Shown: positions 9,612 through 26,707, counted from the stretch's first letter. The stretch: DNA of 38,162 bases from Gammaproteobacteria bacterium (GCA_024225395.1 JAAEMR010000153.1:1-38162), one strand, 5' to 3'. A program made the numbers and translations. The notes: generated from the sequence alone by a model not told the origin.

Positions 9612-9718
9612 TAGTGAACCAGGCTAAAGATATTCAATTGGGAAATGCGAAGGCTGTTATAGAGTGTTTTCCAGTCTGAATGATTGTGTTGAGAAAATCA
9701 GGATTCATTTTTATATAG

Positions 9719-9970: not shown

Positions 9971-10503
9971 GGTCAAACCCTCGGTAAATTTTACTTTATC
10001 ATAAATTGGGGATTAAGAGTTTATTCTGCAGCTCAGGTTAATTACTGAAGCGAAGGCTGATTAGCTTTTATAGAGACTGTAAATAAAACTGTGTAGCAGA
10101 ATATTGATTCGATAGTGATGCATAAACATCATCCCGGTAAGATGCACTGTTTACATTCAGCGTTCAAGAATGTCTTCAAGGTATTCATTGTCCTCACGGC
10201 CATTCCATATTTTGGTGTATTGACCCCTTTTTAGAGTTATTTAGAATCTAAATCTGTACGTCGTCAAACCAGGTTGGACAGCTTGTCCATTCCAGCCTGG
10301 TTCGTTTTTTTCGATACAGCCGGAAAACAAAAGATTCCTGCTCAAAGGGAATAGGGCGTAAATGTACCATTATCTCTGACTGATCGCAGTCACCACTAAA
10401 GAATTTTCAATATTGATAAGGAAACTTGTGTTCAGTACGATGGCTCCATCAAGGTGACTGGCCCGGATGGCAAGACACCGTGGACATTATTAATACATCT
10501 ATA
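9971..10503. other. Gene-poor region with eroded coding scraps
   Basis: This 533-bp gap lies between the HicA-like gene and the end of the first kinase. It holds the terminator at 10267-10311. A minus-strand fragment (10157-10240) reads RGQYTKIWNGREDNEYLE near a stop. A plus-strand fragment (about 10400-10490) reads VQYDGSIKVTGPDGKTPW. Both look like protein tails but neither has a start or full length. They may be remnants of lost genes at the border of the two-component island. Confidence 0.4.
10267..10311 (+). terminator. Strong Rho-independent terminator without an obvious gene
   Basis: Outer arms AACCAGG (10267-10273) and CCTGGTT (10296-10302) enclose an inner hairpin GGACA-GCT-TGTCC (10276-10288). 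A run of seven T residues follows at 10305-10311. This is a textbook intrinsic terminator on the + strand. The nearest upstream + gene ends 650 bp away, so it may end an unrecognised small RNA or a lost gene. Confidence 0.7.
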
Positions 10504-13221
10504 TCACTCTTTTTTATCAGCAACAGGAAAATTTACTATGAACCTTGTCCCCAGATCGGTATTCAGAACACTCATACTGCCCCCCATTTCACGAACGATA
10601 CCATAGCTTATGGAAAGCCCCAGGCCGGTACCCTGACCAATCTCCTTAGTAGTGAAGAATGGTTCGAAGACCCGATCTATTATGTTTTCATTAATACCAC
10701 CTCCCGTATCCTCTACGATAATACTGACTTGCCCGGCATCTTTGGCATCAACCTTAATCAATATTCGTTTATCCTCTCCGACTTGCCTGGGTTTAAGTAC
10801 ATCCCTGGCATTAGTCAGCAGATTAAGCAGTACCTGTTCAATTTGAATTTGTTCACCCTCAATTAACGGACAGGATTCCGCTAGCTCCAGTTTAATCTCT
10901 ATATTGGCAAGAGTCAGTTGTTCACCTATCAGGCCTAACACTGAATGCACGATTTCCCCGGGATCAAGTCTGGTTTTGATATGCTTCGGCTGACGGCTAA
11001 ACATTCGCATATGATCAATGATTGAGGCAGCACGCTGTGTCTGTTCATCTATACGTTCCAGTTTATTGCATAGATACTTGTCATCAAGTGATGACTTATT
11101 GATTCTGCGCATTATATTTCCGGATGCCATCCTGATAATATTGAGCGGCTGGTTTAATTCATGGGCAACCCCTGTTGCCATTTCACCCAGACTGGCCATT
11201 TTTGAGGACTGCATAAGCAGGGCTTCTGTCTGCTTACGTTCAGTAATGTTTTGACCCACGTTGATAACGCCAATAATGTTGCCAAATTTATCACACCGGC
11301 TATCGCAATTGAGCAAGACACTCACCATGTCTCCTGCCTGGGTGTAGATTGGAAGCTCATAATTGGTGGTTCCTTTACCAGCTAGTGCCAGGTCGAGGAT
11401 GGACTTGAACGATGCTTTGTAATCATCAGTAATGTATTCATTTATAAGATGATGTCCAATGACATCATCTTTACTATACCCCATGATGTCAGAGATTGCC
11501 TGATTCCAATCATTGATACATCCATCGATATCGATGCTAAAGATCAGTGAGTTGGTGGCATCCATAAGTTGAATCAGGTCAGTAGCTGTTCGTTCATTAT
11601 CCAGGCGTGCTTGTTTCAACTCTCTAGTTCTATCTTCAACCCGTAACTCTATTTCATCATAAGATTTTTGTAATTTAGATTCGGTAATCTTTCGTACTTC
11701 GATTTCTTTCTCTAGCTTTTTCAGCAAGTCACTCTTTGTTTTATTGACTTCCAGCAACTGATCATTAATAGCTTTCACTTTGGTGTAATCCAAAATAAAG
11801 CCATCAAGATGGTGAACTTTAACGCTATCGTTTAGATATGTAGCGCATCCAATTTCATTCACCCAGATAATTTTCCCTGAGCGTGTAGAAATGCGATATT
11901 TAATATCCCATGATTGATGTAATTTGATGGCCTTATTTACTTCATGAGAAACATATTCTTCATCATCTTTATAAATAATGCTGGCATAGCTTCTGACCTG
12001 GTTATTTATAAAATCATCTGGCGGGTAGCCTGTTAATTGCTCTATTTTTCTACTTAAAAATTTCATGCTCCAATGTTTATCCAGCCTACATCGAAAAGTA
12101 ACACCAGGTAAGCTCTCAACAAGCCTGGTATACTTAATTTGGCTTTGACGAGATTTATTTTCTGCTATATTTGACCTGTTGATAAATAACACAATGAAAT
12201 AGCATATGATAGCCCCAATAATTGTCAAAATTAAGACCGTTATACTTATCAATTTAATGTGTTGTTGACGAATATTAGTTACGCTTTCTGCTGGGGTATG
12301 TAAAACCAGTTTCCAATCAAAATTGCCTTTAATCTCATCGTTTGCATGAGCCCCCAGCTTTATTGGATTGATTGTCGCATACGACCAAAATCCGTATCTA
12401 TCATGAAGCTGACCTGATAAATTTGCCGAAATATTGTTCCAGGTCTGTGGGTAACTATTCTGAAAGGTCGTGTTTTTATCCAGCATAAATCCCCATTGCT
12501 CATCTGAATGTGGACTAACATAAAAATAGCCGTCTTGATTAAGAAAGCTATAGTAACTATTCGCTAAGCTTGTGCTTGCATATGTACAATTCCTAATGAT
12601 ATTTAACAAATAATCAGCACTATAATTTAATACAACAATACCCCGCTTTTTTCCTGACTTATCATAGATGACTCTGCCTAATCTGATCATTGGGTTGAAG
12701 GGTATCTCTATGACCCCATTCTCAATATTCAGATCCAATGGTGATATATAGATTTCCCCTTTATTAAGTTTTAATGTATTTTGTACGTAATAACGATTTA
12801 TTTTATTTTGCAGTTCTTTTTCAGGGACAATGGTGGCTGCATTGATATCATAGTCCACACGAACTTTTTCTCTGCCAGTTTCGTCAATCCAGCGAATCTG
12901 GTTGTAGACTTTTTGAGAATTAGAAAAATTTATAAAATCACTATTAACTCGATCTATTAAATCTTTGTCATCATCATTTATTACTGCCAATAAGCTGGGC
13001 ATTTTCCCTATAAATTCTAAATCATTAAGGGCATCGGATAATGCGGTATTCAACTTGTATTCAACCATAGAAATTCCGAGGGTCGAAATTTTTTTCAAGC
13101 GGTTTTCATCTATTTCATAAGCATAATTTAAAAGACCTACCCCCCCTGCAATAATCATTATTACTAATGGGAGAAAATACATTAACCAGTAAATAATTGA
13201 ATCGTTATTATACTTAGTCAT
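10504..13221 (-). CDS. Membrane sensor histidine kinase (Cache-like sensor, two PAS, HisKA, HATPase)
   Basis: The protein has 905 residues. TM1 (about 12-32) and TM2 (about 324-347) enclose a ~290-residue periplasmic sensor with a Cache/PDC-like look (e.g. QIRWIDETGREKVRVDYD, GIVVLNYSADYLL). Cytoplasmic PAS regions lie at about 365-480 and 550-660, joined by a coiled coil (485-545). The DHp helix GEMATGVAHELNQPLNIIRM carries phosphoacceptor H687, HPK4-like. The catalytic domain has the N box EQVLLNLLTNARDVL, the DTGGG G1 box, FEPFFTTKE and GTGLGLSISYGIV. There is no receiver domain. ATG 13221 has AAGGA at about 8 nt. It lies 98 bp downstream of the HD-GYP regulator, probably in one transcript from the repeat-bearing promoter at 14435-14489. 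The ligand is unknown. Confidence 0.9.
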   Translation of the reverse strand: MTKYNNDSIIYWLMYFLPLVIMIIAGGVGLLNYAYEIDENRLKKISTLGISMVEYKLNTALSDALNDLEFIGKMPSLLAVINDDDKDLIDRVNSDFINFSNSQKVYNQIRWIDETGREKVRVDYDINAATIVPEKELQNKINRYYVQNTLKLNKGEIYISPLDLNIENGVIEIPFNPMIRLGRVIYDKSGKKRGIVVLNYSADYLLNIIRNCTYASTSLANSYYSFLNQDGYFYVSPHSDEQWGFMLDKNTTFQNSYPQTWNNISANLSGQLHDRYGFWSYATINPIKLGAHANDEIKGNFDWKLVLHTPAESVTNIRQQHIKLISITVLILTIIGAIICYFIVLFINRSNIAENKSRQSQIKYTRLVESLPGVTFRCRLDKHWSMKFLSRKIEQLTGYPPDDFINNQVRSYASIIYKDDEEYVSHEVNKAIKLHQSWDIKYRISTRSGKIIWVNEIGCATYLNDSVKVHHLDGFILDYTKVKAINDQLLEVNKTKSDLLKKLEKEIEVRKITESKLQKSYDEIELRVEDRTRELKQARLDNERTATDLIQLMDATNSLIFSIDIDGCINDWNQAISDIMGYSKDDVIGHHLINEYITDDYKASFKSILDLALAGKGTTNYELPIYTQAGDMVSVLLNCDSRCDKFGNIIGVINVGQNITERKQTEALLMQSSKMASLGEMATGVAHELNQPLNIIRMASGNIMRRINKSSLDDKYLCNKLERIDEQTQRAASIIDHMRMFSRQPKHIKTRLDPGEIVHSVLGLIGEQLTLANIEIKLELAESCPLIEGEQIQIEQVLLNLLTNARDVLKPRQVGEDKRILIKVDAKDAGQVSIIVEDTGGGINENIIDRVFEPFFTTKEIGQGTGLGLSISYGIVREMGGSMSVLNTDLGTRFIVNFPVADKKE

Positions 13222-13319
13222 AGTGATTTCCTTATGCTTATGGGCAACATGCTATATTTCCAAAGACCTTTAACCTTTCCTCTACTCAAACAGCGTCAGC
13301 ACTCTAAGACATCATGCGC

Positions 13320-14393
13320 CTAACCAACCAATCGTGAATAAATTTCTGAAAAACCTTTGGCAACGTCTTTAAACATCGCAAGTAATTCCGGGTTAAAATG
13401 AGCAGGCATTGTGCGGCCATCGCCATTGATTAGTATCGATACGACTTCATTATGATCTAATGGTGGCTTATAAGGTCTCTCTGAACGTAAAGCATCATAT
13501 ATATCTGCAATAGCAGTTATTTGAGCTTCTATGGGTATTTCCTGTCCTCTAATCTGCTGAGGATAACCAGTACCATCCCAACGTTCATGATGACATAATG
13601 CTATTTGTGCAGCCATGGTCATAACGGGTTGCTGTGAATTTGACAGAATTTGGTATCCATTTAGCGGGTGATTTTGCATTATTTTTACTTCATCTTGTGA
13701 TAGTGAACCACTCTTATGCAATATATTTTCTGGAACACCAATTTTCCCAACATCATGCAGCGGAGCAGCAATTCTGATCAAATCCTGCTTGTCCTTGTTC
13801 CAGCCATATTCTGCAGCAAGTAAAGCCGAATATTCTCCAATTCGGCGGATATGGGAGCCTGTTTCGGGGTCCTTAAATTCAGCGGCTACCGCTAGACACT
13901 CCAAAGATTCACGATAGGATTGTTTTAAATTGTGTATTAATAAATTAATTTCCACTTTTTTTGCCTCGACATCAGACGTTAGTGCCTGCTTAAAATGGAA
14001 ATCTGATACTCTTAGCGTAGTCAATTCGAAGGCTTTATTTACCACATGAACAACATTATCAGCATTAATTGGTTTTTTAATAAAATCAAAGACATTGAGA
14101 CGTAGGGCATCTATTGACTCTGTATAGCCTCCATGACCCGTAATAACAATGTATTCAACGAAACGCGATGATGGTAGTTCTGACCTGGCTTGAGATATCA
14201 TTTCGAGTCCAGTTTGCCCAGGCATCTGTAAATCAGTGATAACAACTGCAATTTCAGGATCTCTTAGGATTTGTCTCAAGCCTTCATTAGCATTACCAGC
14301 CTCAGCACAATCATAGTTCTCATCTGTAAGGCATTCTCTGACTTCTTGCCGTATTAAAGGCTCATCATCAACAATCAGTATTTTGTTAGCCAT
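13320..14393 (-). CDS. Response regulator with HD-GYP c-di-GMP phosphodiesterase domain
   Basis: The protein has 357 residues and RpfG-like architecture. Residues 3-122 are a receiver: ILIVDDEP acidic pocket, phosphoacceptor D54 in VITDLQMPG, T in VITGHG, K in FIKKPI. A helical linker (125-160) leads to an HD-GYP domain: SHIRRIGEYS, the HD pair H213-D214 in APLHDVGKIG, CHHERWDGTGYPQQIRG with GYP at 276-278, and ITAIADIYDALRSERPYKPP. The metal ligands and the GYP loop are all present, so hydrolysis of c-di-GMP is expected. It is first in a unit with the kinase at 10504-13221 and is served by the promoter module at 14435-14489. It is the only enzymatic output among the island's regulators. Confidence 0.92.
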   Translation of the reverse strand: MANKILIVDDEPLIRQEVRECLTDENYDCAEAGNANEGLRQILRDPEIAVVITDLQMPGQTGLEMISQARSELPSSRFVEYIVITGHGGYTESIDALRLNVFDFIKKPINADNVVHVVNKAFELTTLRVSDFHFKQALTSDVEAKKVEINLLIHNLKQSYRESLECLAVAAEFKDPETGSHIRRIGEYSALLAAEYGWNKDKQDLIRIAAPLHDVGKIGVPENILHKSGSLSQDEVKIMQNHPLNGYQILSNSQQPVMTMAAQIALCHHERWDGTGYPQQIRGQEIPIEAQITAIADIYDALRSERPYKPPLDHNEVVSILINGDGRTMPAHFNPELLAMFKDVAKGFSEIYSRLVG

Positions 14394-14753
14394 AATTTAT
14401 GTCCAATGTAAAGTCTAACTATTTCTATCTATATATAGTATCAAAGACATTTGTTTAAACTATGTTGCTATTGTGTAGAATTGTGTAAAAATTCAGTGGA
14501 AGTTTGTTTAGTCTGTCAGTTCCAATTTACAGGGATATAAGTGAATGTTTACGGATATAGTGTGAGTTTTAAACTACATATGTAATCATTGTGTGAAGCA
14601 CACTTTTGAAAAATACTTTTATCTACTACGGCGGCAGAGGGTTTAATTCTATTCTGAACGTTAGGTCTGAAAGACACCACGAAAATTCTTCTGAAAAATG
14701 TTTGCAGGAAATTTAGTTGAAGTGAGTAATCTTGAGTAGGTGTTTAGAAGCAG
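14394..14753. other. Intergenic region carrying promoter module A
   Basis: This 360-bp gap between two minus-strand genes holds the repeat/-10 module at 14435-14489. The remaining 250 bp show no gene, RNA or clear terminator. Confidence 0.5.
14435..14489 (-). promoter_or_regulatory. Island promoter module A (tandem repeat + 31 bp + -10)
   Basis: Reading the minus strand, TTTACACAATTCTACACA (14489-14472) is a 10-bp-period direct repeat. After exactly 31 bp comes TACTAT (14440-14435), a -10-like box 42 bp before the ATG of the HD-GYP gene. No TTGACA-like -35 is present, which fits an activator-dependent promoter. The 18-mer differs from the four-copy consensus at one position. Confidence 0.75.
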
Positions 14754-15113
14754 CTATTTAGTAAGAGTCTCAACAATATCTAAAATTTCTTCAATATCTA
14801 CTGGTTTAAGAAGAAATTTTATTTTCTTAAACTCATTAGAATTAAGCTCTTCTGAAAAAGAGTCATGGCCAGACATGATAATATATTTATACTTACCTGG
14901 AGAGTGAGCCATGGCAGATTTTATCAGTTCAAAACCGGACTTTCCCGGCATTTTCAGATCAGTAATAATCAAATTTATTTTATAATTATTCCTGAGAATT
15001 GTAAGTGCTGTATCAACTGTGTTCGCTTGTAAAACTATATATCCCTCATCTTCCAGGGCCTCAGAGAGTTCTTCCAGGATATATTTCTCATCATCAACAA
15101 TAAGTACTTGCAT
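14754..15113 (-). CDS. Stand-alone receiver protein, type I
   Basis: The protein has 119 residues and is a single receiver domain with no output domain. Features: QVLIVDDEKYILEE acidic pocket, phosphoacceptor D in LIITDLKMPGKSG, S in IIMSGHDSF, K in FLLKPVD. The start is ATG 15113; a TTG just upstream is in frame but less likely. It is a clear paralogue of the receiver at 15890-16273 (shared layout IDxxxxxIxxILR...LLITDxKMP...IIMxGH...LNS...KPxDxxE). It lies downstream of a kinase stub, as 15890 lies downstream of an intact kinase. Such proteins (CheY, DivK, Spo0F types) work by protein contact or phosphate transfer. The kinase that normally preceded it is broken, so it probably takes phosphate from another island kinase. 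Confidence 0.87.
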   Translation of the reverse strand: MQVLIVDDEKYILEELSEALEDEGYIVLQANTVDTALTILRNNYKINLIITDLKMPGKSGFELIKSAMAHSPGKYKYIIMSGHDSFSEELNSNEFKKIKFLLKPVDIEEILDIVETLTK

Positions 15114-15145
15114 CAATTACTTCATCCACAGTATAAATAGACTTA

Positions 15146-15291
15146 TTAGCTCAAAACAGGAAGAGAAATTACAAAATTTATACCTTCACCCACATCCCTG
15201 GTAGTAAAATAAGCTCAAATATTCGATCCAGAAATTTTTCAGGAATACCTCCGCCCGTATACTTCATGGTCTACTTCTCTTCAGCATCCAG
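15146..15291 (-). pseudogene. Remnant of a histidine kinase ATPase domain
   Basis: The minus strand reads KYTGGGIPEKFLDRIFE, then, after a one-base loss near 15208-15214, FTTRDVGEG, then directly INFVISLPVLS and a stop at 15146. This matches the end of the kinase at 16306-18954 (EDTGGGIPDKLLYRVFDPFF, TTKEVGKG, FTIILPG). The roughly 30 codons holding the GTGLGLS motif are deleted, and everything before the G1 box is gone. An in-frame TAG lies before the TGGG motif. It begins about 15 bp after the stop of the type II receiver gene and ends 33 bp before the type I receiver gene. It is a non-functional scar of a kinase that once sat between them. Confidence 0.85.
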
Positions 15292-15304
15292 AAGGTATCA
15301 CTAT

Positions 15305-15688
15305 CTATAGATGTAACATGTTATGAATATAACGACTAATTGTTTCCAAAGATAATGGCTTTTTGAGTACTGCAATTGAGCCTGTATTGTTTAAGGTTGC
15401 CTTGTCAATGAAATCCTCATGGCCAGACATCATAATCACTTCTACTTTAGGAAGGAAAGTACGGATTTCTTCAATAGTTTTTATTCCATTGGCATCAGGG
15501 AGATTGTAATCCATTAATATAAATTTCGGTTTAAATTTTTTCGCCAGTAACACCGCACTATCACTGTTAGTCGCCTTGTACACAACTAGTTCACTATCTG
15601 ACAAGGCCTCTGAAATTTCTTCCAAAGCATACTTATCGTCATCGACTATGAGTACTCCATTTTTGATAAATCCAAATTCTTTTGACAT
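15305..15688 (-). CDS. Stand-alone receiver protein, type II
   Basis: The protein has 127 residues and is a receiver only. After a short lead (MSKEFGFIKN) come GVLIVDDDKYALEEI, phosphoacceptor D in FILMDYNLPDANG, S in VIMMSGHEDF, and K in VLKKPLS. Its closest relative in the window is 19688-20071, sharing VLIVDDDxYALEExxEAL, KATNSDSAV, FKPKFILMD, NTGSIAVLKKP and the SRxI ending. Both are first genes behind a copy of the repeat-bearing promoter, so they look like products of a block duplication. It has no output domain. The ATG at 15688 lies 44 bp from the -10 box of module B. Confidence 0.87.
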   Translation of the reverse strand: MSKEFGFIKNGVLIVDDDKYALEEISEALSDSELVVYKATNSDSAVLLAKKFKPKFILMDYNLPDANGIKTIEEIRTFLPKVEVIMMSGHEDFIDKATLNNTGSIAVLKKPLSLETISRYIHNMLHL

Positions 15689-15731
15689 GACTGTCTCGCT
15701 TTAACACATATAAATATATTGTATATTTGTT

Positions 15732-15786
15732 ATTCTAGCTGAAGAATATGCTATTAGTTTGCTTAAAATATGTAAAATTGTGTAAA
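15732..15786 (-). promoter_or_regulatory. Island promoter module B
   Basis: On the minus strand TTTACACAATTTTACATA (15786-15769) is followed after exactly 31 bp by TAGAAT (15737-15732), 44 bp before the type II receiver ATG at 15688. There is one mismatch to the four-copy repeat consensus. No consensus -35 is present. Confidence 0.75.
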
Positions 15787-15889
15787 CTTTACTGACATTT
15801 TTCAGATATTACAGTCAATAACAGGGAAAAGGGCTCTTTCTGGATTTGGTTTCGCGGATTGATACTGGTAGACAGGTCTTTTAGACTTC

Positions 15890-16273
15890 TTAACTTGACA
15901 CTTCAGAGTTTACCTTCTTTTCGACTACCTTGATAAAAGCTAAAACTTCATCAAGATCAATTGGTTTGATGAAAACCGGGATTCCGTTTAACTCGACAGA
16001 ATTAAGATCATTTGAAACATCTCCATGCCCCGTCATGATGATAAACTTATGACGATCAGGAAACTCTCTCATTGAAAAATGAATAAGTTCAGTACCAAGC
16101 TTTATCGGCATTTTGATATCGGTAATCAAAAGTTTGATATCCAGATTATCTCTCAGGATATCAATCGCTTTGTCCACAGAGTTAGCGGACATGACGTCAT
16201 TACCATCTTCTGATATAGCTTCAACAAGCTCATCAAGGATGTATTCTTCATCATCAACAACAAGAATATTCAT
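15890..16273 (-). CDS. Stand-alone receiver protein, type I
   Basis: The protein has 127 residues and is a receiver only: NILVVDDEEYILDEL pocket, phosphoacceptor D in LLITDIKMP, T in IIMTGHGD, K in VFIKPIDLDEVL, plus a short tail. It is paralogous to 14754-15113. It starts 32 bp after the kinase stop (16306) on the same strand, so it should be co-transcribed with that kinase and is its most likely phosphorylation partner. There is no output domain; it presumably acts as a shuttle, a phosphate sink or by protein contact. The ribosome binding site is weak. Confidence 0.87.
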   Translation of the reverse strand: MNILVVDDEEYILDELVEAISEDGNDVMSANSVDKAIDILRDNLDIKLLITDIKMPIKLGTELIHFSMREFPDRHKFIIMTGHGDVSNDLNSVELNGIPVFIKPIDLDEVLAFIKVVEKKVNSEVSS

Positions 16274-16305
16274 AATTATTTACAAGCCAGGCTTAAAAAA
16301 GTAAC

Positions 16306-18954
16306 TTACAATCCAGTAACGGGAATGCCAGGTAATATTATAGTAAACTCTGCACCTTCTGCACTATTACTGACGTTAAACATTCCGCCCATCTCGTTTA
16401 CTATACCGTAACTGACTGAAAGCCCCAGTCCTGTACCTTTCCCCACTTCCTTGGTAGTGAAAAAAGGATCAAATACCCGGTATAGAAGCTTATCAGGAAT
16501 ACCTCCACCCGTATCTTCCATGCTCAACCAAACTTTATTACCTACCATCTTGACTGCAATGTATATTTTCATCTGTCCTGATGATGATTTCGCAAGGATT
16601 GCATCACGAGCATTCGACAATAGATTCAGTAACACTTGTTCAAAAAGTATCTGATGCCCCATCACAAGGATCGGTTCATCCGGTATATCCACTACAACTA
16701 AAATATTATTTAGTCGTAATTGTTCACCCATCATATCCAATGCGCTAGCTACACATGTATTAATATTCATGGGGGCAGGGCTTTCATCAGCGCGTCGACC
16801 AAACATCCTTAAATGATCAATAATGGATGCTGCTCGCTCTGTCTGCTCTCCAATACGCTGAAGTTTGGCTTTTAGATACTCCAAATCTATCTCAGTATTA
16901 TCCTTTGTTATCTTGCGCAGAGCATTGCCTGCTGCCATTCGAATGACATTAAGCGGCTGATTCACTTCGTGTGCCACTCCCGTTGCCATCTCGCCAACAG
17001 TGGCTAGTTTTGATGCCTGTATGAGCTGGGCTTCTGCTTCCTTCCGTTTGGTCATATCCAGTCCGAAGAAGATCACTCCTACAATATTTCCAAATACATT
17101 TCGTCGCACTGAGGCGTTAAGCAATAAATCCACACGCGTAGTATTTTTTTTATTTAACAGCACTTCAAAATTATTGAACTCGTTCTCATTGCCCTGCAAC
17201 GCCTTGACAAGCAAATGCCGCATCGGTTCCTTAAAATCCTCGGTTACGAAGTCATTCACCAGCGAACATCCTAGTGCTTCTTTTTGATGAAAACCTGTTA
17301 AAGTCTCCGTTGTTTTATTCCATTCGTTGATAATGCCATCCGAATCAACACCAAAGATGGGAGCATTGGCTGTCTCTATTAATTGATTCCGTTCTATAAA
17401 AAGTTGGTCTTTCTCTTTATTTGAATCAAGCAAGGCTGACTGTTCTAGTTCAACGCTGTTAATAAGCGTCTCGAAGTGACCAATCAAATCCTGCATTTCT
17501 TCAAAATCCGTGTCAGGCCAATCCAAAGATTCAGAATGACCCGTAGATTCGTACTTACTTACAAGAAAAGAGAGTTTTTTTAGTTGATTGGTTGCCCGAA
17601 GACTCACTATGGGGGCTAGCAGTAGCACTACAACCGTAATCAGCATGGCTAAAAACATACTTTTCCTACTATTTTCATACCTTTTATTTACAAGGGTGCC
17701 TAGAGAAGTAAAAGTCTTTAATACAACATGATTGGGTATTATTACTTCATTATTTACGTAGAACGATTTTTGCCACATTACCATGGCCGCAAGCGACTCT
17801 TTTGGATGCAGAATGTTTGATTTCTTGCTAGTTTTAAATTGATTGGTGGGGAAAATTCTATTTACATAAATCAAGTCGCCTTCATTATTCATGACATTGA
17901 TGTAATCAATGTCTGTCTTATCAGCCAGGCTAAAGAACATCGATTTATTTATCGTAAAAACCAATGTTGATCCCTCTTTTGTTTTAACCTTGAATAAAAG
18001 ATCCCGCCTCAAATTTACTTTATCAGCAGATATAATATTATCGTTTCCAGAATGCTCAGAAACATCACCATCTTTCCGTTCAAATAAAATTTTTGTCTCC
18101 CCATGTGAGTTTATTAACCTGGCTTCGATAACCTGCCTAAAATCATGTAGTTGCATAAAGGTAGAGATACGTCGATGCCAAACCTCTTCTGGATAATATT
18201 GTAAACGCATATTATATAATCGATTTAAATCTTGCTGTCTTTCTTCATATTGAGCGCTCAGAAATGATGTATATAGTTGTGCACGAGTATTTGTCTTCAT
18301 TTCATACGATACACTCTCATCTAGAGGGGACAAAACAATGGATAAGTAAGAGTACAACAGGATTGGAAGCATAGTGAATAAAGCGATGCTATTATTGATC
18401 ACACGAGTCATGGATGTAATCTCTCGCTTTCCTCTCCCAAGAAAGCTATCTAACAAATTTAACTGAATTAAGGTACTTGCAATTACGGTATTAATAATCC
18501 CGTTAAACGGCTGTTTTATCAAAATAATATCAACAGCAGTATCTGTCATTCCCAGAACATGCTTGTAAAAGAGATATATCAATGGCATGCCAATAAATAT
18601 CCAGTACACGATATCGGCCAGCATCAGGTTTTTTACTTTTTGCTTTGAGATTATTGTGCCAACAATTATAGCTTCAAGAGTGAATAATATGATTGCATAA
18701 GGGTGCCCCCAGAGTATTAAGGTATAGGATGAAACTATTAATGCAACGAGGGTTCCATATTTGACGCCGAATTGATGCACTGCAAACATGGTTGCAATAC
18801 TTCCAAAAATGAAACTGACACTAAAAAAAAGCTCCAGGCTTAAAAAATTACCTAATACCCCCAGAAGAACCAGCAATGCCAGCCTAAGGAATTTATTCTT
18901 GGTAGATAGATAACTTTTATTATCAGGGTAAGAAGTTGAGCTCTCAGAATTCAT
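16306..18954 (-). CDS. Membrane histidine kinase with multi-helix N-terminal domain, PAS, HisKA, HATPase
   Basis: The protein has 882 residues. Residues ~20-207 form a MASE-like block of about six membrane helices (LELFFSVSFIFGSIATMF, ILWGHPYAIILFTLEAIIVG). A presumed extracytoplasmic region (~210-430) precedes a last helix (FLAMLITVVVLLLAPIV, 433-450). Then come a HAMP-like stretch, a PAS domain (~520-635, APIFGVDSDGIINEWNKTTE) and the DHp helix GEMATGVAHEVNQPLNVIRM with H662. The ATPase has FEQVLLNLLSNARDAI, DTGGG, FDPFFTTKE and GTGLGLSVSYGIV. It is third in a minus-strand unit after 19688 and 18987, with 32-bp gaps on both sides. The membrane block may sense membrane state or a small ligand; the signal is unknown. 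Confidence 0.88.
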   Translation of the reverse strand: MNSESSTSYPDNKSYLSTKNKFLRLALLVLLGVLGNFLSLELFFSVSFIFGSIATMFAVHQFGVKYGTLVALIVSSYTLILWGHPYAIILFTLEAIIVGTIISKQKVKNLMLADIVYWIFIGMPLIYLFYKHVLGMTDTAVDIILIKQPFNGIINTVIASTLIQLNLLDSFLGRGKREITSMTRVINNSIALFTMLPILLYSYLSIVLSPLDESVSYEMKTNTRAQLYTSFLSAQYEERQQDLNRLYNMRLQYYPEEVWHRRISTFMQLHDFRQVIEARLINSHGETKILFERKDGDVSEHSGNDNIISADKVNLRRDLLFKVKTKEGSTLVFTINKSMFFSLADKTDIDYINVMNNEGDLIYVNRIFPTNQFKTSKKSNILHPKESLAAMVMWQKSFYVNNEVIIPNHVVLKTFTSLGTLVNKRYENSRKSMFLAMLITVVVLLLAPIVSLRATNQLKKLSFLVSKYESTGHSESLDWPDTDFEEMQDLIGHFETLINSVELEQSALLDSNKEKDQLFIERNQLIETANAPIFGVDSDGIINEWNKTTETLTGFHQKEALGCSLVNDFVTEDFKEPMRHLLVKALQGNENEFNNFEVLLNKKNTTRVDLLLNASVRRNVFGNIVGVIFFGLDMTKRKEAEAQLIQASKLATVGEMATGVAHEVNQPLNVIRMAAGNALRKITKDNTEIDLEYLKAKLQRIGEQTERAASIIDHLRMFGRRADESPAPMNINTCVASALDMMGEQLRLNNILVVVDIPDEPILVMGHQILFEQVLLNLLSNARDAILAKSSSGQMKIYIAVKMVGNKVWLSMEDTGGGIPDKLLYRVFDPFFTTKEVGKGTGLGLSVSYGIVNEMGGMFNVSNSAEGAEFTIILPGIPVTGL

Positions 18955-18986
18955 TTTTGCAGAAATTTACCTATGCCTACAGTGAT

Positions 18987-19598
18987 TTATTTAGACGGTG
19001 ACTTTTCATCAAGAAAGTACGACAGATTACTTTTTACATAGATGAGCTCACTCAAGACATCAAAAAGTCGATCCGATACATCATTCTCTATTTGCTGTAA
19101 AGACATTATATTTTTTTTCAAAGCATGAATATGCTGTTTTCTAGTTATTTGTTCTTGAACTTTTTGGACTGACTTTTTAATCGAGGCCTCGAATGAATCT
19201 GTATTAATTGGCTTTAATAAAAAATCAGTCATGCCTATTTTAATCGCATTAAGCGCTTCATCCATCCCCGCCTGACCCGTCACCATAATAGAATTAAAAT
19301 AACGGTCTTCATTATTAGTTCCTTTTTTTAATGTGTCAAGTAACTCAAAACCAGTCATTCCAGGCATTGAATAATCGGTAATAACGATTGATATGCCCTT
19401 GTTATTCTTGAATAACTCAATAGCTTCATAGGGATCTGTTGAGGTAAAATATTTATAACCGATCGAATTAACCATCTCAGCTATTTCCTGTGTAATCAAA
19501 AAATCGTCATCAATGATTAAAAATTCTACACCTGAAATTATCTCATCCGATTCATTCAGAATCGTTTCAGAGCTTTCATCTAGCATCAATTTATTCAT
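18987..19598 (-). CDS. Receiver protein with C-terminal coiled coil
   Basis: The protein has 203 residues. After 23 residues comes a receiver: FLIIDDDFLITQ, phosphoacceptor D75 in VITDYSMPGMTGFELL, T in MVTGQAG, K in FLLKPIN. Residues ~140-203 form a helical, probably coiled-coil tail (VQKVQEQITRKQHIHALKKN) with no recognised output domain. In layout it resembles the receiver and linker of the HD-GYP protein at 13320-14393 (shared GMTDFLLKPIN / NVFDFIKKPIN region), as if the enzyme domain were missing. ATG 19598 has AAAGGT upstream. It sits between the type II receiver gene and the kinase. It may act by dimerisation or as an adaptor. Confidence 0.8.
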   Translation of the reverse strand: MNKLMLDESSETILNESDEIISGVEFLIIDDDFLITQEIAEMVNSIGYKYFTSTDPYEAIELFKNNKGISIVITDYSMPGMTGFELLDTLKKGTNNEDRYFNSIMVTGQAGMDEALNAIKIGMTDFLLKPINTDSFEASIKKSVQKVQEQITRKQHIHALKKNIMSLQQIENDVSDRLFDVLSELIYVKSNLSYFLDEKSPSK

Positions 19599-19687
19599 AT
19601 GGGTTACCTTTAGTTAGTATTTCTCAAGTAGGACGGTTGTTATTACACGGATTATAAATTTAAGCTGATCCAGCATATATCTAAAGT

Positions 19688-20071
19688 CTATACATTCAGC
19701 TTGTTGCTGATAAAACGGCTGATTGACTCAACTGAAACTGGTTTTCTTAGTACCGCAGTCGACCCTGTATTTCTAATGTTTGCCTCTGCAATAAAACTAT
19801 CCTGACCCGATATCATAATAACTTCTACATCGGGAAGAAAATTTCGGATCATCGCGGTGGTTTCTAATCCATCGGTATCAGGCAAATGAAAATCCATTAA
19901 AATAAATGATGGTTTAAATTCCATTGCAAGCGTCACCGCATCATTACTATTTGTTGCCTTATGCACAGTTAACCCGTATTCTAATAATGCTTCTTCAAGC
20001 TCTTCAAGAGCATATAAATCATCATCAACAATGAGAACTGATTGATCAATAAAATAGTTATTATTTAACAT
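19688..20071 (-). CDS. Stand-alone receiver protein, type II
   Basis: The protein has 127 residues and is a single receiver: SVLIVDDDLYALEELEEAL pocket, phosphoacceptor D in FILMDFHLPDTDG, S in VIMISGQDSF, K in VLRKPVS, ending SRFISNKLNV. It is a close paralogue of 15305-15688. It is the first gene of the unit 19688 - 18987 - 16306 - 15890, with AAGGGTG before ATG 20071 and promoter module C 36 bp upstream. The 127-residue length leaves no room for an output domain. It is a likely partner of the kinase in the same unit. Confidence 0.88.
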   Translation of the reverse strand: MLNNNYFIDQSVLIVDDDLYALEELEEALLEYGLTVHKATNSNDAVTLAMEFKPSFILMDFHLPDTDGLETTAMIRNFLPDVEVIMISGQDSFIAEANIRNTGSTAVLRKPVSVESISRFISNKLNV

Positions 20072-20106
20072 TGATTACTTCACCCTTTAAAAACTGGATA
20101 TTATGA

Positions 20107-20161
20107 ATTGTAGTCACTTAATATTATCGCTGTGTGTATGGAATGTGTAAAATTGTGTAAA
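20107..20161 (-). promoter_or_regulatory. Island promoter module C
   Basis: On the minus strand TTTACACAATTTTACACA (20161-20144) matches the consensus exactly. It is followed after exactly 31 bp by TACAAT (20112-20107), 36 bp before the receiver ATG at 20071. No consensus -35 is present. Confidence 0.78.
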
Positions 20162-20209
20162 TAGAAAGGTTGATATCCTGATTTGGACTTGATCGCAGAA
20201 AAAGTGAGT

Positions 20210-20425
20210 TTAAAGATTAAACCAACATGGCTGTTTGAAGCCAAAATACGCTATGGAATCCTTACTTAGAATAAATTTGGACTGGCTTTCCTCACTGGTA
20301 ATTTCCTCTAAACTCATTTCGCCATTTGCGTCTTCATGGATAGAGCTGTTCAAGCCCAGGCCTTGGTAAGATATATTTGGCACAATTTCAACACTCGATG
20401 CAGTACAATTTGCTACCATAAGCAT
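20210..20425 (-). CDS. Doubtful 71-residue open frame
   Basis: The 71-codon frame (MLMVANCTASSVEIVPNIS at its start) lies directly upstream of promoter module C on the same strand. It has no recognisable domain, no good ribosome binding site and a composition not clearly protein-like. It could be a small gene, an eroded one or chance. It is listed because the 20072-20689 gap otherwise holds only module C. Confidence 0.25.
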   Translation of the reverse strand: MLMVANCTASSVEIVPNISYQGLGLNSSIHEDANGEMSLEEITSEESQSKFILSKDSIAYFGFKQPCWFNL

Positions 20426-20689
20426 AGAAAAGTGAAATCAATCATCAACAATACCATGTGATTCTAATACCATAGGGTCAGGCGAGGGTTTCATGGTTAT
20501 ACAGTCGGCCTCATAAAAAAATAAATAATCGATTGCAAAGAAATGGAAAGCGTCAACCCGTATACTAACGGTTCTAAGTAATTGTTATTGATCATGAAAG
20601 TTAATTGTTGTTATTGTTAATAATTGTGCTTAACTTAAGGTATTAAAAAAAACTACCAATATATCTGCAAATTAAAGTATTGAGCTCTA

Positions 20690-21415
20690 GTGAATAAAGA
20701 AAAAATTCTCATTCTAGAAGATGATGTATTAGCCCTTGATGAGGCTGCCGAAGCTATTTCTGATGAAGGGTTTTGTGTTGTTAAAGCTCGTTCAGAGCAA
20801 GAATTTAAAACTATAACAAAAAGACACACGCTAGACCTGTTACTAATTGATGTAAACCTCCCTGATGGAAACGGATTGAGTTTAGCCAGGAAAATACGTA
20901 TGGACTCCGGCGTGGGCATCATAATCGTTTCCGGTAAGAAAATAGATGAAGCAGACCGTGTTATTGGGCTTGGGTTTGGTGCAGATGACTATATAACTAA
21001 ACCTTATGGTCCGAGGGAGTTGCTGGCCCGTATCCATGCCGTTCTCAGGAGAACAAAAGGTTCTCAATACCCTGAATTAAAGTCAAATGCTGCAGGAATT
21101 GATATCATTGAGTTTCTAAACTGGCGGCTTGATTTGGGCGCTCAACAATTATCCACACCTGGGGGTGAGAACATACATTTGACTACAGCTGAATACAAGT
21201 TGCTTAAGGTTTTTCTAGAGAGACCGAACCGGGTGCTCTCCCGTGAATACCTTATTGAGGAAGTACATGATCGTGAATGGACAGTTTATGATCGGGGCAT
21301 GGATGGTCTTGTCAGTCGTTTACGTCGAAAAATACCCCTGCCTGGAAATATTCCACCATTGATAAAAACTATACGTGGGGCTGGTTATCTATTCCCCCAT
21401 TCAGTTAACAGGTAA
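20690..21415 (+). CDS. OmpR/TorR-type DNA-binding response regulator
   Basis: The protein has 241 residues. The receiver has ILILEDDVLALDEA, phosphoacceptor D54 in LLLIDVNLPDGNG, S in IIVSGK, and K103 in GADDYITKPYGPRELLARI. Residues ~140-238 are a winged-helix domain of the OmpR/PhoB family: LTTAEYKLLKVFLERPNRVL, then a recognition helix region DRGMDGLVSRLRRKI and the wing IKTIRGAGYLF, most like TorR. The start is GTG 20690 with a weak GAG site. It is the only DNA-binding protein in the island and is transcribed divergently from the unit starting at 20071. Its own upstream region lacks the tandem repeat found before the other units. I infer that it binds those repeats. Confidence 0.92.
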   Translation: MNKEKILILEDDVLALDEAAEAISDEGFCVVKARSEQEFKTITKRHTLDLLLIDVNLPDGNGLSLARKIRMDSGVGIIIVSGKKIDEADRVIGLGFGADDYITKPYGPRELLARIHAVLRRTKGSQYPELKSNAAGIDIIEFLNWRLDLGAQQLSTPGGENIHLTTAEYKLLKVFLERPNRVLSREYLIEEVHDREWTVYDRGMDGLVSRLRRKIPLPGNIPPLIKTIRGAGYLFPHSVNR

Positions 21416-21485
21416 TATTGAACTCAGTTTGAAGTGTTTCTTTGATTCGACCTGAACACCCCATTTAATACTCTCCAAACCAGTT

Positions 21486-21559
21486 GATTCCACCAAATCA
21501 AAAAGTAAAAGCGGCTAAATATGAAATATAAATAGTTTACGCACTTTTTTGATGGAATC
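21486..21559. repeat. Imperfect long inverted repeat downstream of the OmpR-type gene
   Basis: The left arm contains GATTCCA and TCAAAAAGT (21486-21506). The right arm reads ACTTTTTTGATGGAATC (21543-21559), its complement apart from a few extra bases in the left arm. The arms are separated by about 36 bp. It lies 70 bp after the regulator stop and may act as a terminator stem or be a relic of an inserted element. Confidence 0.4.
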
Positions 21560-21685
21560 ATAAAGCCGATTGCACATCATCCCGCCGTGGTCTTCACTTT
21601 GCCTCCACAGGGCCATCACACTAAAAAGATACTCCTTATACTTCACCAGGCTATTTCAGTATTAGCCAATTCCCTTTGTTTGTAA

Positions 21686-21740
21686 TTTATACAATTTTAT
21701 ACAATAGCTTCATAATACCTACATGTTCTCATTATATGAT
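21686..21740 (+). promoter_or_regulatory. Island promoter module D
   Basis: On the plus strand TTTATACAATTTTATACA (21686-21703) is followed after exactly 31 bp by TATGAT (21735-21740), 31 bp before ATG 21771. Two C-to-T changes separate the repeat from the consensus, one in the same position of each half. Confidence 0.72.
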
Positions 21741-21770: not shown

Positions 21771-21872
21771 ATGAATCATGTAATTATTTTTATGGCATCC
21801 GAAAATATGTGCCATAAATTTTTGAGTCATCAGTCAATCAGAATAACCTCAATAATAAATAGCATCTCATGA
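21771..21872 (+). pseudogene. Frameshifted start of a broken histidine kinase (33 codons)
   Basis: ATG 21771 has AAGGG upstream and follows promoter module D. The 33-residue product includes NHVIIFMASENM, which matches QPLNVIRMASGNI just after the phosphoacceptor histidine of the neighbouring kinases. From the shared Met of MAS to the Arg of the RAS/RAA motif the intact paralogues have 96 nt. Here there are 95 nt, so one base is missing and the frame ends at a TGA overlapping the next ATG. The histidine and all sensor domains are absent. It may still be translated and could couple translation to the next frame. Confidence 0.7.
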
Positions 21873-22414
21873 TGAACGAAATCAATCGCGCATCAGCCAT
21901 CGTTGACCACATAGAGATGTTGGTGCATCAGGAGAATTATGCCTGGATCAAACTTGACCCGAGAGAAATCGTTCATTCAGTGCTTACTCTCGTGGGTGAG
22001 CCGTTTCACCTGGCTAATGTTAAAATAAAACTTATATTGCCTGACACTTGTCAGCAAATACAGTGCATACCAAACCAGTTTGAACGGGTACTGCTAAATA
22101 TACTGATTAATTCCTGGTATGCAATTAATTCTGACCATGCTAAAGAATACAAATGCATACAGATTAAAATTGATACCGGTATTGACGATAAGATCAAAAT
22201 TTCCATAGAGGATTCAGGGGGCGGTATAGATGAAACAATTATTGACAGGGTTTTCGACCCATTCTTTACAACCAAGGATGTCAGCACGAGTGCCGGTCTG
22301 GGATTATTCATTTGCTACCGCATTGTTCACAATATGAACGGCAGCATAACCACATTCAATACCGGGCAAGGAGCAAAATTCGAAATCATATTGCCGGTTA
22401 TCGACAGCAATTAG
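21869..22414 (+). CDS. Truncated histidine kinase: ATPase domain without phosphoacceptor histidine
   Basis: The product has 181 residues. Residues 4-20 (INRASAIVDHIEMLVHQ) match the second DHp helix of the island kinases. The rest is a full HATPase_c domain: FERVLLNILINSWYAI (N box), EDSGGGI (G1), FDPFFTTKD (F box), SAGLGLFICYRIV (G2, usually GTGLGLS) and EIILPV. The H box and sensors are lost and a frameshift separates it from the 33-codon fragment upstream, so it may be a pseudogene. The ATPase motifs remain nearly intact, so it could also be an ATP-binding partner or a competitor of kinase dimers. It overlaps the preceding frame by ATGA and lies 11 bp before the intact kinase at 22426, in one likely transcript. 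Confidence 0.7.
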   Translation: MMNEINRASAIVDHIEMLVHQENYAWIKLDPREIVHSVLTLVGEPFHLANVKIKLILPDTCQQIQCIPNQFERVLLNILINSWYAINSDHAKEYKCIQIKIDTGIDDKIKISIEDSGGGIDETIIDRVFDPFFTTKDVSTSAGLGLFICYRIVHNMNGSITTFNTGQGAKFEIILPVIDSN

Positions 22415-22425
22415 GGATAAATATC

Positions 22426-25194
22426 ATGACAGGAAAAAAACTCAGCTTAGGTAAAGCCACTTTTGTTGTTCTTGTGATATTAAGCCTGTCGCTAATAATA
22501 ACCTGGTTTTCGTTAAAAGCTGTCAATCATAACATGCTTAAAACCATGGAAAATAAGGTTATCAACTACACTCAAAGTGTTGCCATCAATCAGGAAAAAA
22601 ATATATTTAAAATCATCGATGGTAAAGCAGTAAATAACAGCAAAGACCTAAGACAAATAATTACAAATATTTGGCAAATCTCCAAAATTGATGATATTTC
22701 AATTTTCTGCCGCAATCCAACAGAGGGTGTTATTTATTCTCTCACAAGAAATGAGGTCAGAGTTATATCACCCCGAATAGTGTCCAGAAATGCCGTTATC
22801 AACCCAGAGGCAGAACTTTTACGCGCATTTAATAACCAGCAGGCACAATACAAATTTACGGAAAATGCGCTATGGGATGAGTGGACCACTGTTTATATTC
22901 CTGCAATTGACCCACTCACTGATGAATTAATTGGCGTAATAAGTTTGAAGAACGATATCTTCATGTGGCGCTTAAATCTATTGACCAAGCTAGCTATTCC
23001 ACTGGGGATATTATATTTATTCATGATTATGGGAGGGGTCTATTTTATAAATCCTTCAAAAATACGATTGGACAGACGCTTGCCCAACCCAATGCTGCGC
23101 TTAATAGTAACCCCCTTGTTAGCTTGCCTGTTAATAATGATCAGCGGATTATTATTGGTATTACTCGAGACAAATCTAAGGCATATAGCACACCATAGTG
23201 AATCTCAACTTGATGCCTATTTGGAACATGTGGAGACTGATTCGATTAAAACGTTCGATACTCTGACTAACCTGGCCAGCATTATGGCAAAAAATACAGC
23301 ATTAACAGAGGCATTGTTGGCTAATGATCGGCAGGCTCTTCAGCTGGACTGGCAACAAACTTTCGAATGGAACAAATATCGAGATAACCTCTCTCATCTC
23401 AGTTTCCTCCGGGCAGACCATACCGTCCTATTGAGGATGCACTTTCCTCAAAAATACGGTGATCAGGTAAAGTGGTTTACGTTGCTAGAAGCACAACGTA
23501 CCGGTCAGGTCACCTCCGGTTTAGAAATTGGAAAATTCGGCAGTTTAACACTAAGAGTCGTTCATCCAGTGTTCAAGGATGGCAGCTTGCAGGGTTATAT
23601 AGAACTTGGCAATAGTCTGGAAAACGTGTTATCCGGGCATAACACGCTGCATAACACAGAAGCCTTTGTATCTATCTACAAGCGCTTTTTGGGTAGATCG
23701 GACTGGGAAGAAGGTAAAAAGGTGGGAAACAAACAAAAATGGGATGAATTTGAAGATAAACTGGTAACCCAGGGTAGCAATAACAAACTTTCCACTAATT
23801 TAAGGAATTATATCCAAAATCATAAAAACCAAAACAGAACAAACAAAATAAATTCAATTTTTGAAAGTTTCGCGGTTTATTTTTTTCCTATTTACGATGT
23901 AACTGATACTGAAGTGGGTGGTTTATACATAGCTAATCATGATATGGGAAAAGGAATTTTAGGCAAACACTATATATCAATGTTAGTAACCATGCCGTTT
24001 TTAATAATACTGATCTTTATACTATATTTAGTATTCAGACAAGCCGATAAAAATTTTCTGGTGCAATTTAATAACTATCGACAACTTGCTCATGATTATA
24101 AACAGCAACAATGGCGCCTTCATTATATTCTAAAAGGTATTAACGCCGGCACCTGGGAATGGAATATACAAACAGGCGATGTTAAGATCAATTCGCGCTG
24201 GGCAGAAATTATAGGTTACAGCCTCGATGAACTTGCTCCCTTTTCAATTGATATCTGGCGAAAGAATACTCTCGAAGAAGACTTAAAACGAGCAGATCAA
24301 CTGTTAGCTAAACATCACAACGGGGAGAGTGATTACTATGAATGTCAATTTCGCATGAAACACAAGAATGGAGACCTGGTCTGGGTGCAAGACCGGGGGC
24401 AAGTGATTTCAAGGACCGACGAAGGCAAGCCGTTAATGATGTACGGCACTCATAACGATATAACTAAACAAAAACAGGCTGAACTGAAGGTTGTTCAGTC
24501 CTCAAAACTGGCCAGCCTGGGGGAAATGGCGACGGGGGTCGCTCATGAATTGAACCAGCCACTTAATGTTATACGAATGGCTTCGGGAAATATTCTTCGA
24601 AAGCTTCGCAAAGGACCTGTCAATCAAGACTATCTCATCAAAAAACTGGAGCGTATCGAGGGTCAGACCACCCGTGCAGCATCAGTAATTGACCACATGA
24701 GAATGTTTGGCCGTAAGGCGAGTCATACCCTGGTTAAATTAAACCCCGTAGAAATTGTGCATTCAGTACTTGGTCTGATTGGTGAGCAATTGCGCCTTAC
24801 TAATATTGATATCAAGTTGGAATGTCCTGAGTCCTGCCCTCAAATCCTGGGTGAGCAAATACTGGTTGAGCAGGTGTTACTTAACCTGATAACTAATGCC
24901 AGAGATGCAATTCTTTCCAACGAGAGCCAGCAAAATAAATGTATACAGATTAGTATTAATACCGATGTTGACGGACATGTTGTTATCGCCATAGAGGATA
25001 CAGGGGGAGGGATAGATAAAAAGCTACTTAGCAGGATTTTTGAACCATTCTTTTCCACCAAGGGGCCTGGAAATGGAACAGGCCTGGGGTTGTCCATCAG
25101 TCAAGATATTATCAAGGAGTTGCAGGGACACTTAACCGTGATGAATACAGACCTGGGCGCAAGATTTATGGTTCAACTACCTTTTGCTACCTAG
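22426..25194 (+). CDS. Membrane histidine kinase with two extracytoplasmic sensors, PAS, HisKA, HATPase
   Basis: The protein has 922 residues from ATG 22426, preceded by AGGGATA; the frame is open further upstream but overlaps the truncated kinase in another frame. Four membrane helices lie at about 10-30, 183-208, 224-247 and 518-538. They enclose a first sensor loop (31-180) and a second (250-515) that resembles a double-Cache sensor (LLRMHFPQKYGD, GSLTLRVVHPVFKDGSLQGY). A PAS/PAC region spans ~568-690 (AGTWEWNIQTGDVKINSRW). The DHp helix GEMATGVAHELNQPLNVIRM bears H707. The ATPase has VEQVLLNLITNARDAI, DTGGG, FEPFFSTK and GTGLGLSISQDII. Two tandem sensors suggest two inputs. It shares promoter module D with the truncated kinase. 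Confidence 0.9.
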   Translation: MTGKKLSLGKATFVVLVILSLSLIITWFSLKAVNHNMLKTMENKVINYTQSVAINQEKNIFKIIDGKAVNNSKDLRQIITNIWQISKIDDISIFCRNPTEGVIYSLTRNEVRVISPRIVSRNAVINPEAELLRAFNNQQAQYKFTENALWDEWTTVYIPAIDPLTDELIGVISLKNDIFMWRLNLLTKLAIPLGILYLFMIMGGVYFINPSKIRLDRRLPNPMLRLIVTPLLACLLIMISGLLLVLLETNLRHIAHHSESQLDAYLEHVETDSIKTFDTLTNLASIMAKNTALTEALLANDRQALQLDWQQTFEWNKYRDNLSHLSFLRADHTVLLRMHFPQKYGDQVKWFTLLEAQRTGQVTSGLEIGKFGSLTLRVVHPVFKDGSLQGYIELGNSLENVLSGHNTLHNTEAFVSIYKRFLGRSDWEEGKKVGNKQKWDEFEDKLVTQGSNNKLSTNLRNYIQNHKNQNRTNKINSIFESFAVYFFPIYDVTDTEVGGLYIANHDMGKGILGKHYISMLVTMPFLIILIFILYLVFRQADKNFLVQFNNYRQLAHDYKQQQWRLHYILKGINAGTWEWNIQTGDVKINSRWAEIIGYSLDELAPFSIDIWRKNTLEEDLKRADQLLAKHHNGESDYYECQFRMKHKNGDLVWVQDRGQVISRTDEGKPLMMYGTHNDITKQKQAELKVVQSSKLASLGEMATGVAHELNQPLNVIRMASGNILRKLRKGPVNQDYLIKKLERIEGQTTRAASVIDHMRMFGRKASHTLVKLNPVEIVHSVLGLIGEQLRLTNIDIKLECPESCPQILGEQILVEQVLLNLITNARDAILSNESQQNKCIQISINTDVDGHVVIAIEDTGGGIDKKLLSRIFEPFFSTKGPGNGTGLGLSISQDIIKELQGHLTVMNTDLGARFMVQLPFAT

Positions 25195-25456: not shown

Positions 25457-26671
25457 TTAATCCCAATTAAGTGCTCCACCCGTCTGATATTCAGTCACAC
25501 GTGTTTCAAAAAAGTTTTTCTCTTTCTTGAGGTTAGCCTGCTCATCCAGCCATGGCAGGGTGTTTTCTGCACCGGGGAAGGGTTCTTGCTGGTGCATTGC
25601 ACGTGCTCGGCGGTTGGCTATGAAACGGAATTGACCAAGATGGTCTTCGGCGTTATAACCCAGGATTGGATCGGGTAACAGGTAGTTGGCATAAGCCTGT
25701 TCTGCTGCTTCGGCTTCTTCCCACATGTGCTGGATCGCTTTGGGGTCGAGCTTGAGTTTTTCTTCCTGGATGATCTGATTGCATACTCGGATACCGAACG
25801 ATGCATGCAGGACTTCATCACGCATGATGTATTGCAGTTGTTCTGCTGTACCTTTCATTAAACCGCGACGTTGCAGTGCGAAAATGGGAGTAAAGCCATT
25901 GTAGAACCATACACCTTCGAAGACGCCGGCGAAGAACGTATAGGCCATGACGAAGTTTTCCAGTTCGTCACGATCGGTGAGGTCGATGTCGGCGCGTAAT
26001 ACTGAGGCCAACTTGGTATTGCACAGGTTGATCTTGTGATGTATCTCCGGGACAACACGGTAACGGTTATAGATTTCACCCTGATCGAGGCCGATGGTTT
26101 CGATGCAGTGCTGGTAGGTCCAGGTATGCATGGATTCTTCGTATACCTGACGTGCCTGGTATATCTGTAATTCCGGAGCGGTCATTTTTTCCATCACTGC
26201 AAGGCCGATGTTGCGCATGGCGAGAATGTCAGAGGTGGTCAGGTAGGACATGACGTTATCGTATACGTGTTTTTCTTCCAGCGTTAACTTGTGGTTGTAG
26301 TCATGGATATCCTGCGTCATGTTGACGTCCAGAGGGGTCCAGTGATTTTTGTTGGCATTTAAAAAGTAATCCCAGGCCCATGGGTATTTGAATGGAGCTA
26401 ACTGATTGATATCAGCCATGCCGTTGACGACGCGTTTGTCTTCGGCCTTGACGGGTTTGGCTGCAACCGGGTCGATGGCTGGCCTTGGAATATCGGCAAC
26501 TTTGGTCTTAACCGGTGCTGTCGGTTGTTCGACTTGTTGAGCCACGTTATTACTAACAGGGTTGTCAGTGGTTGCTGTTATGTCAGGCACTTCTGAGCTA
26601 ACGGTTTCAACGGCTTTTAGTACGGGTTCAGGTTTTGCTGGTGCTGCCAGTGGATCGTCCCAATTTAACAT
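25457..26671 (-). CDS. nrdB: Ribonucleoside-diphosphate reductase, beta subunit
   Basis: The protein has 404 residues and carries the diiron-tyrosyl radical cofactor for NrdA. An ~85-residue Pro/Ala/Val-rich, probably disordered N-terminal extension precedes the conserved four-helix core. Core signatures: SYLTTSDILAMRNIG, ARQVYEESMHTWTYQH (metal-ligand Glu/His and the presumed radical Tyr), RADIDLTDRDELENFVMAYT, FFAGVFEGVWFYNGF, and LQYIMRDEVLHASFGIRV with further ligands. It ends GGALNWD, and the first residues MLNWDD echo that ending. The C-terminal tail is the part that docks into the alpha subunit. It follows nrdA by 36 bp on the same strand, so the pair forms an operon under the NrdR/DnaA region upstream of nrdA. 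Confidence 0.95.
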   Translation of the reverse strand: MLNWDDPLAAPAKPEPVLKAVETVSSEVPDITATTDNPVSNNVAQQVEQPTAPVKTKVADIPRPAIDPVAAKPVKAEDKRVVNGMADINQLAPFKYPWAWDYFLNANKNHWTPLDVNMTQDIHDYNHKLTLEEKHVYDNVMSYLTTSDILAMRNIGLAVMEKMTAPELQIYQARQVYEESMHTWTYQHCIETIGLDQGEIYNRYRVVPEIHHKINLCNTKLASVLRADIDLTDRDELENFVMAYTFFAGVFEGVWFYNGFTPIFALQRRGLMKGTAEQLQYIMRDEVLHASFGIRVCNQIIQEEKLKLDPKAIQHMWEEAEAAEQAYANYLLPDPILGYNAEDHLGQFRFIANRRARAMHQQEPFPGAENTLPWLDEQANLKKEKNFFETRVTEYQTGGALNWD

Positions 26672-26707
26672 AATTTATTTCTCGTTATTTATTGTTGTCA
26701 GTAGTGG

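Follow-up and report, generated by a model that had tools for sequence, protein, structure and literature searches.

TorR of E. coli and Salmonella acts at torCAD through four 10-bp tor boxes of unequal affinity at a single promoter (PMC9239176). The HLR1 element of RpaB in cyanobacteria is an 18-bp box, KTTACAWW-N2-KTTACAWW, and activates when located at about -45 to -66 from the start (PMC13421787). In E. coli, most ArcA sites are built of three to five direct repeats with a period of about 11 bp, and at several promoters the repeats DR3 and DR4 are weaker and occupied at higher concentration (PMC3798270). The PhoP box of Salmonella depends on the helix face, being functional at 12, 23, and 33 nt from the -10 (PMC3335776). 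KdpE recognizes TTTATA-N5-TTTACA, located at -72 to -50 (PMC3264566), and the CpxR box is GTAAA-N5-GTAAA (PMC4846824).

We compared these systems with a promoter module that recurs in a signalling island of a gammaproteobacterium (genome G000; GCA_024225395.1). The window analyzed is a 38,162-nucleotide stretch of this genome (JAAEMR010000153.1:1-38162). Each 55-bp module has four half-sites in direct repeat, which begin at positions 0, 10, 21, and 32 and follow each other at intervals of about one helical turn; TANNNT comes next, at 49. Half-sites 1 and 2 are strong (TTTACACA) and form an 18-mer, TTTACACA-AT-TTTACACA; half-sites 3 and 4 are weak, with the core CANA. Between the end of the fourth half-site and the -10 are 9 bp, and the weak pair overlies the -35 position. 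The window contains four modules:

14435-14489, minus strand: module 1, with strong half-sites 14489-14482 and 14479-14472, weak half-sites 14468-14461 and 14457-14450, and -10 TACTAT at 14440-14435; its target is the receiver-HD-GYP and kinase unit
15732-15786, minus strand: module 2, with half-sites 15786-15779, 15776-15769, 15765-15758, and 15754-15747 and -10 TAGAAT at 15737-15732; its target is the receiver, kinase remnant, and receiver unit
20107-20161, minus strand: module 3, with half-sites 20161-20154, 20151-20144, 20140-20133, and 20129-20122 and -10 TACAAT at 20112-20107; its target is the operon of receiver, receiver-coil protein, kinase, and receiver
21686-21740, plus strand: module 4, with half-sites 21686-21693, 21696-21703, 21707-21714, and 21718-21725 and -10 TATGAT at 21735-21740; it lies upstream of a truncated kinase, then a full kinase

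The first-pass annotation had reported four 18-mers with 1, 1, 0, and 2 mismatches, each pointing toward its own gene and followed after exactly 31 bp by one of these -10-like hexamers, and we found the coordinates, strands, orientations, mismatch counts, and spacing all to be correct. The hexamers lie 31-43 bp from the start codon, in agreement with the sequence. A good -35 box is absent from all four sites, as had been noted: with a -35 hexamer at 15-19 bp taken as the mark of an ordinary sigma-70 promoter, the best match to TTGACA was 3 of 6.

The shared module is real and far above chance, as several counts confirmed. Besides the four sites, the window holds no further match to the 18-mer at up to 3 mismatches, and dinucleotide shuffles of the window contained 0.12 matches on average and never reached four. 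Genome-wide counts come from pattern searches of the 4.45-Mb genome, in which the 18-mer at up to 2 mismatches had a single extra match (C149:67923), within a 562-aa reading frame. The offset of 31 is unique among offsets 0-59, since elsewhere TANNNT is not common to even two of the four sites. The combined pattern TTTRYACAAWTTTRYAYA-N31-TANNNT at 0-1 mismatch did not occur in 114 Mb of random sequence drawn from a third-order Markov model of the same genome; at 2 mismatches, this model gives 0.43 expected occurrences per genome.

The 31 bp between 18-mer and hexamer had been taken for an empty spacer, wrongly, as it holds two more conserved half-site cores. In eight aligned modules, the conserved spacer columns are 8, 9, and 11 (C, A, A) and 19, 20, 22, and 23 (C, A, A, T), and none of 20,000 spacer rotations yielded a block as strong. 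A weight matrix derived from half-sites 1 and 2 only ranked offsets 21 and 32 as the top two in the spacer, with 0 of 5,000 rotations matching both scores. Because the weak pair covers the -35 position, it accounts for both the fixed 31 bp and the missing -35 box. The modules thus show direct-repeat half-sites about one helical turn apart, the hallmark by which we recognized OmpR/PhoB-family operators, and their four-half-site plan is that of activator sites of this family (TorR, ArcA, PhoP, and RpaB). The earlier argument that constant geometry is a sign of function is supported, with a shared OmpR-family-type promoter module that recurs in a second genome together with the regulator.

A candidate binder is encoded beside the modules:

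20690-21415, plus strand: OmpR/PhoB-family response regulator (Response_reg and Trans_reg_C), proposed to bind the modules

Its product scored 76.5 and 75.9 bits in Pfam against cut-offs of 30.2 and 26.2, and it has the receiver plus winged-helix Trans_reg_C arrangement of the OmpR/PhoB family. The best NCBIfam matches include TorR, OmpR, ArcA, PhoB, CpxR, and RpaB, all far under their cut-offs, which places the regulator in the family but as none of those named members.

TorR gave the best NCBIfam score (188 bits, under the cut-off of 275). It resembles the present case in being an OmpR-family regulator with four unequal boxes at one promoter, but the tor box CTGTTCATAT is another sequence (PMC9239176), and no TMAO respiration genes are found among the module targets. 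The HLR1 box of RpaB is almost identical to the module box, which we place at about -61 to -44. However, position 7 of the module half-site is C rather than A or T at most sites, which departs from the HLR1 consensus; the regulator scored 136 bits against the RpaB cut-off of 330, and the targets include no photosynthesis genes. ArcA sites likewise have several direct repeats of decreasing strength, but their number and spacing vary and ArcA is mainly a repressor, whereas the module geometry is constant (168 bits against a cut-off of 334). For PhoP, the distance from box to -10 is also set by the helix face and some promoters have two boxes (PMC3335776), but these promoters have several architectures rather than one, and the box is a (T/G)GTTTA-N5 hexamer repeat (101 bits against 336). 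KdpE half-sites resemble TTTACA/TTTATA, but the repeat is 11 bp rather than the 10 bp of the module (100 bits against 325). The module had also been likened to the CpxR layout, and its reverse strand does read GTAAA-N5-GTAAA, but the CpxR box is just one of several that match, and at 143 bits the protein is far under the 341-bit equivalog cut-off.

Orthologues of the regulator occur in the same gene neighborhood in the sister genome G012 (58% identity) and in G013 (51%), where the recognition helix is similar to that of the window regulator. The nearest paralogue in its own genome is only 39% identical; this genome is rich in other OmpR-family or receiver proteins, with 81 candidates at first look. 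No module lies upstream of the regulator gene itself. A scan of public genome contigs with the regulator returned only paralogues of 31-38% identity from distant taxa, unsuitable for footprinting.

The genes that follow the modules belong largely to two-component signalling:

13320-14393, minus strand: receiver and HD-GYP protein (c-di-GMP phosphodiesterase type; Pfam HD_5 and Response_reg), first gene past module 1
10504-13221, minus strand: membrane sensor histidine kinase, second gene past module 1
15305-15688, minus strand: stand-alone receiver, first gene past module 2
15182-15270, minus strand: remnant of a broken histidine kinase gene
14754-15116, minus strand: stand-alone receiver, last in the module 2 unit
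19688-20071, minus strand: stand-alone receiver, first gene past module 3
18987-19598, minus strand: receiver with C-terminal extension, module 3 operon
16306-18954, minus strand: sensor kinase with multi-pass N terminus, PAS, HisKA, and HATPase, module 3 operon
15890-16273, minus strand: stand-alone receiver, last in the module 3 operon
21869-22414 (also given as 21818-22405), plus strand: kinase remnant directly behind module 4, HATPase only, the phosphoacceptor histidine part being lost
22312-25194, plus strand: full sensor kinase past module 4, reading frame as listed

The last kinase probably starts downstream of the listed TTG. Among 41 genomes of the order, the sensor region of the 16306-18954 kinase is present only in G000 and G012. 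A module had been described before each of four units; the four modules are there, but the unit after the 21686 site opens with the broken kinase remnant and not with an intact gene. The promoter of module 4 has survived though its adjoining gene is a remnant.

The regulon had further been thought self-contained, which fails on two sites outside the island: contig C157 carries a fifth module, and C4 probably a sixth. The regulon is thus not confined to the island. The genome scan with the module pattern recovered the island sites above chance, and it also returned the unlinked C157 promoter. At 0-1 mismatch, box-N31-TANNNT matched the four island modules and C157:35305-35359 in the 4.45-Mb genome; a reverse match at C157:35250 is the C157 repeat array read backwards rather than a separate site. 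Matches at 2 mismatches were C4:14732 and C228:197, the second of which we rejected, as it has AAATTT instead of a -10 and the half-site cores are absent. What stands of the earlier interpretation is the functional, shared module of OmpR-family type, without the empty spacer and the self-contained regulon. This is a new regulon on a well-known OmpR-type plan, and it reaches past the island.

The C157 site is located where an array made up of four 10-bp units, TTTATACAAA, terminates, and TATACT follows the last 18-mer of the array after exactly 31 bp. In the third repeat, TTTAATACA, an additional base relative to the array unit brings the ACA exactly into module register; the third half-site of this module matches and the fourth does not. 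A membrane HAMP-PAS protein starts about 75 bp beyond TATACT and, where the two can be aligned, shares 52% identity with the window kinase 10504-13221. Since its gene runs off the contig before the catalytic domains, we call it a putative kinase. At G000:C157:35285-35322, the array adjoins a terminal repeat, AAAAAATAATCCCTCCGCCACCTTTTTCG, with an inverted copy several hundred bases upstream; the two copies may delimit a small mobile element that has decayed.

C4:14732 has TATGCT at 31 bp and 5 of the 7 conserved spacer letters. Downstream of it are a gene for an ShlB/FhaC-type transporter and a reading frame that exceeds 3450 codons and encodes a TPS secretion domain, and this two-partner-secretion operon is a probable, though not certain, member of the regulon. 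The pair occupies positions 6868-19001 of the examined C4 segment, and the upstream region contains a 21-bp direct repeat that includes TTTACACA.

G012 carries three modules, all facing signalling genes or the remains of such genes. Two are on C179, the contig homologous to the island, and resemble recent copies of each other (spacers 77% alike). One of these (G012:C179:21599-21653) is the counterpart of window module 3, and the other (C179:6350) is now upstream of a broken receiver frame. The third, unlinked (C163:18671), has TATACA in place of TANNNT and lies upstream of a kinase and a receiver related to the window genes at 16306 and 15890. In the region C179:5900-6350, the order is module, broken receiver gene, and small secreted protein; a binding protein of the phosphonate type is encoded further along, as are a hybrid kinase and a sigma-54 activator.

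Among the 41 genomes of the order, an extended pattern, built from eight of the nine sites that it matched, found the module only in G000 (6 matches) and G012 (3 matches), each of which carries a close orthologue of the regulator; C4:14732 is the sole new site, given how the pattern was derived. Its reversed control had 3 matches, in two other genomes. G013, which has the orthologue, contains no recognizable module, nor a variant module in its island. A class-wide search of 369 genomes gave 3 single, scattered matches outside G000 (in G358, G079, and G289) versus 4 for the reversed control, and by that control rate we attribute them to chance. Isolated 18-mers in G001, G005, G007, and G022 and on contigs C41, C69, C78, C88, and C149 of the own genome were likewise rejected as chance, as they have no TANNNT at 31 bp; the isolated matches inspected were mostly within reading frames.

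We propose, with a probability of about three in four, that the 55-bp modules are promoters that depend on activation by an OmpR/PhoB-family response regulator, for which the adjacent orphan 20690-21415 is the most likely candidate. Both the binding of this product and activation are what we infer from sequence, and it is the missing -35 that makes the module look activator-like. The regulator would receive its phosphate from at least one kinase of the network. A phosphorylated dimer would bind the strong distal pair, and a second would then occupy the weak proximal pair over the -35 position, so that the bound regulator could recruit RNA polymerase to a promoter without a -35 box.

The same half-sites could serve repression, with a regulator that fills half-sites 3 and 4 turning the promoters off, as RpaB does where its box overlaps the start region, -38 to +23 (PMC13421787). 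We consider this unlikely, as the strong box is near the RpaB activation position of -66 to -45 and there is no -35 for unaided transcription. It is also rather unlikely that the operators belong to a different OmpR-family regulator encoded elsewhere, with the neighbor a passenger or another target. The many paralogues in the genome mean that another protein could be the binder, and both the lack of a module at the linked regulator's gene and the module-free G013 with its 51% orthologue fit such an arrangement; but in the two of 41 genomes that have modules, a close orthologue adjoins module-driven genes. The neighboring regulator is therefore still the most likely binder.

The CANA cores at about -36 to -33, at constant spacing to the -10, could instead mark the core promoter of an alternative sigma factor, with CANA at -35, TANNNT at -10, and the 18-mer as an UP-like element. 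This is very unlikely, since the core recurs helically phased in all four repeats, the strong 18-mer included, which suits a direct-repeat operator better, and the -10 is sigma-70-like. The notion that the modules are functionless leftovers of a recent duplication of promoter segments was already disfavored and has next to no probability: the island genes are paralogous to one another and the two G012 C179 modules look recently copied, but the 40-bp upstream flanks in the window are 15-30% alike, against 83-94% for the boxes.

With the modules read as activator-dependent promoters, their targets, mostly sensor kinases and stand-alone receivers, suggest that the regulator would control the abundance of the signalling network that acts upstream of it, and the two-partner-secretion operon is a probable output. 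A more tentative picture, which we hold to be possible but doubtful, is a circuit in which the regulator governs, through an invariant four-half-site promoter, almost only the kinases, stand-alone receivers, and HD-GYP protein that feed or drain its phosphate. Such a many-kinase phosphorelay would be retuned transcriptionally, with the two-partner-secretion operon as effector. For an orphan response regulator, this supplies a predicted operator and a defined regulon, together with a prediction at base level: four half-sites in fixed helical phase. The modules also suggest that a many-kinase signalling island is wired together by transcription, and they link it to an unlinked sensor gene and, as candidate output, to a probable secreted-protein operon. 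At the island border, 25457-29665 (minus strand) contains 404-aa and 985-aa reading frames that resemble ribonucleotide reductase subunits.
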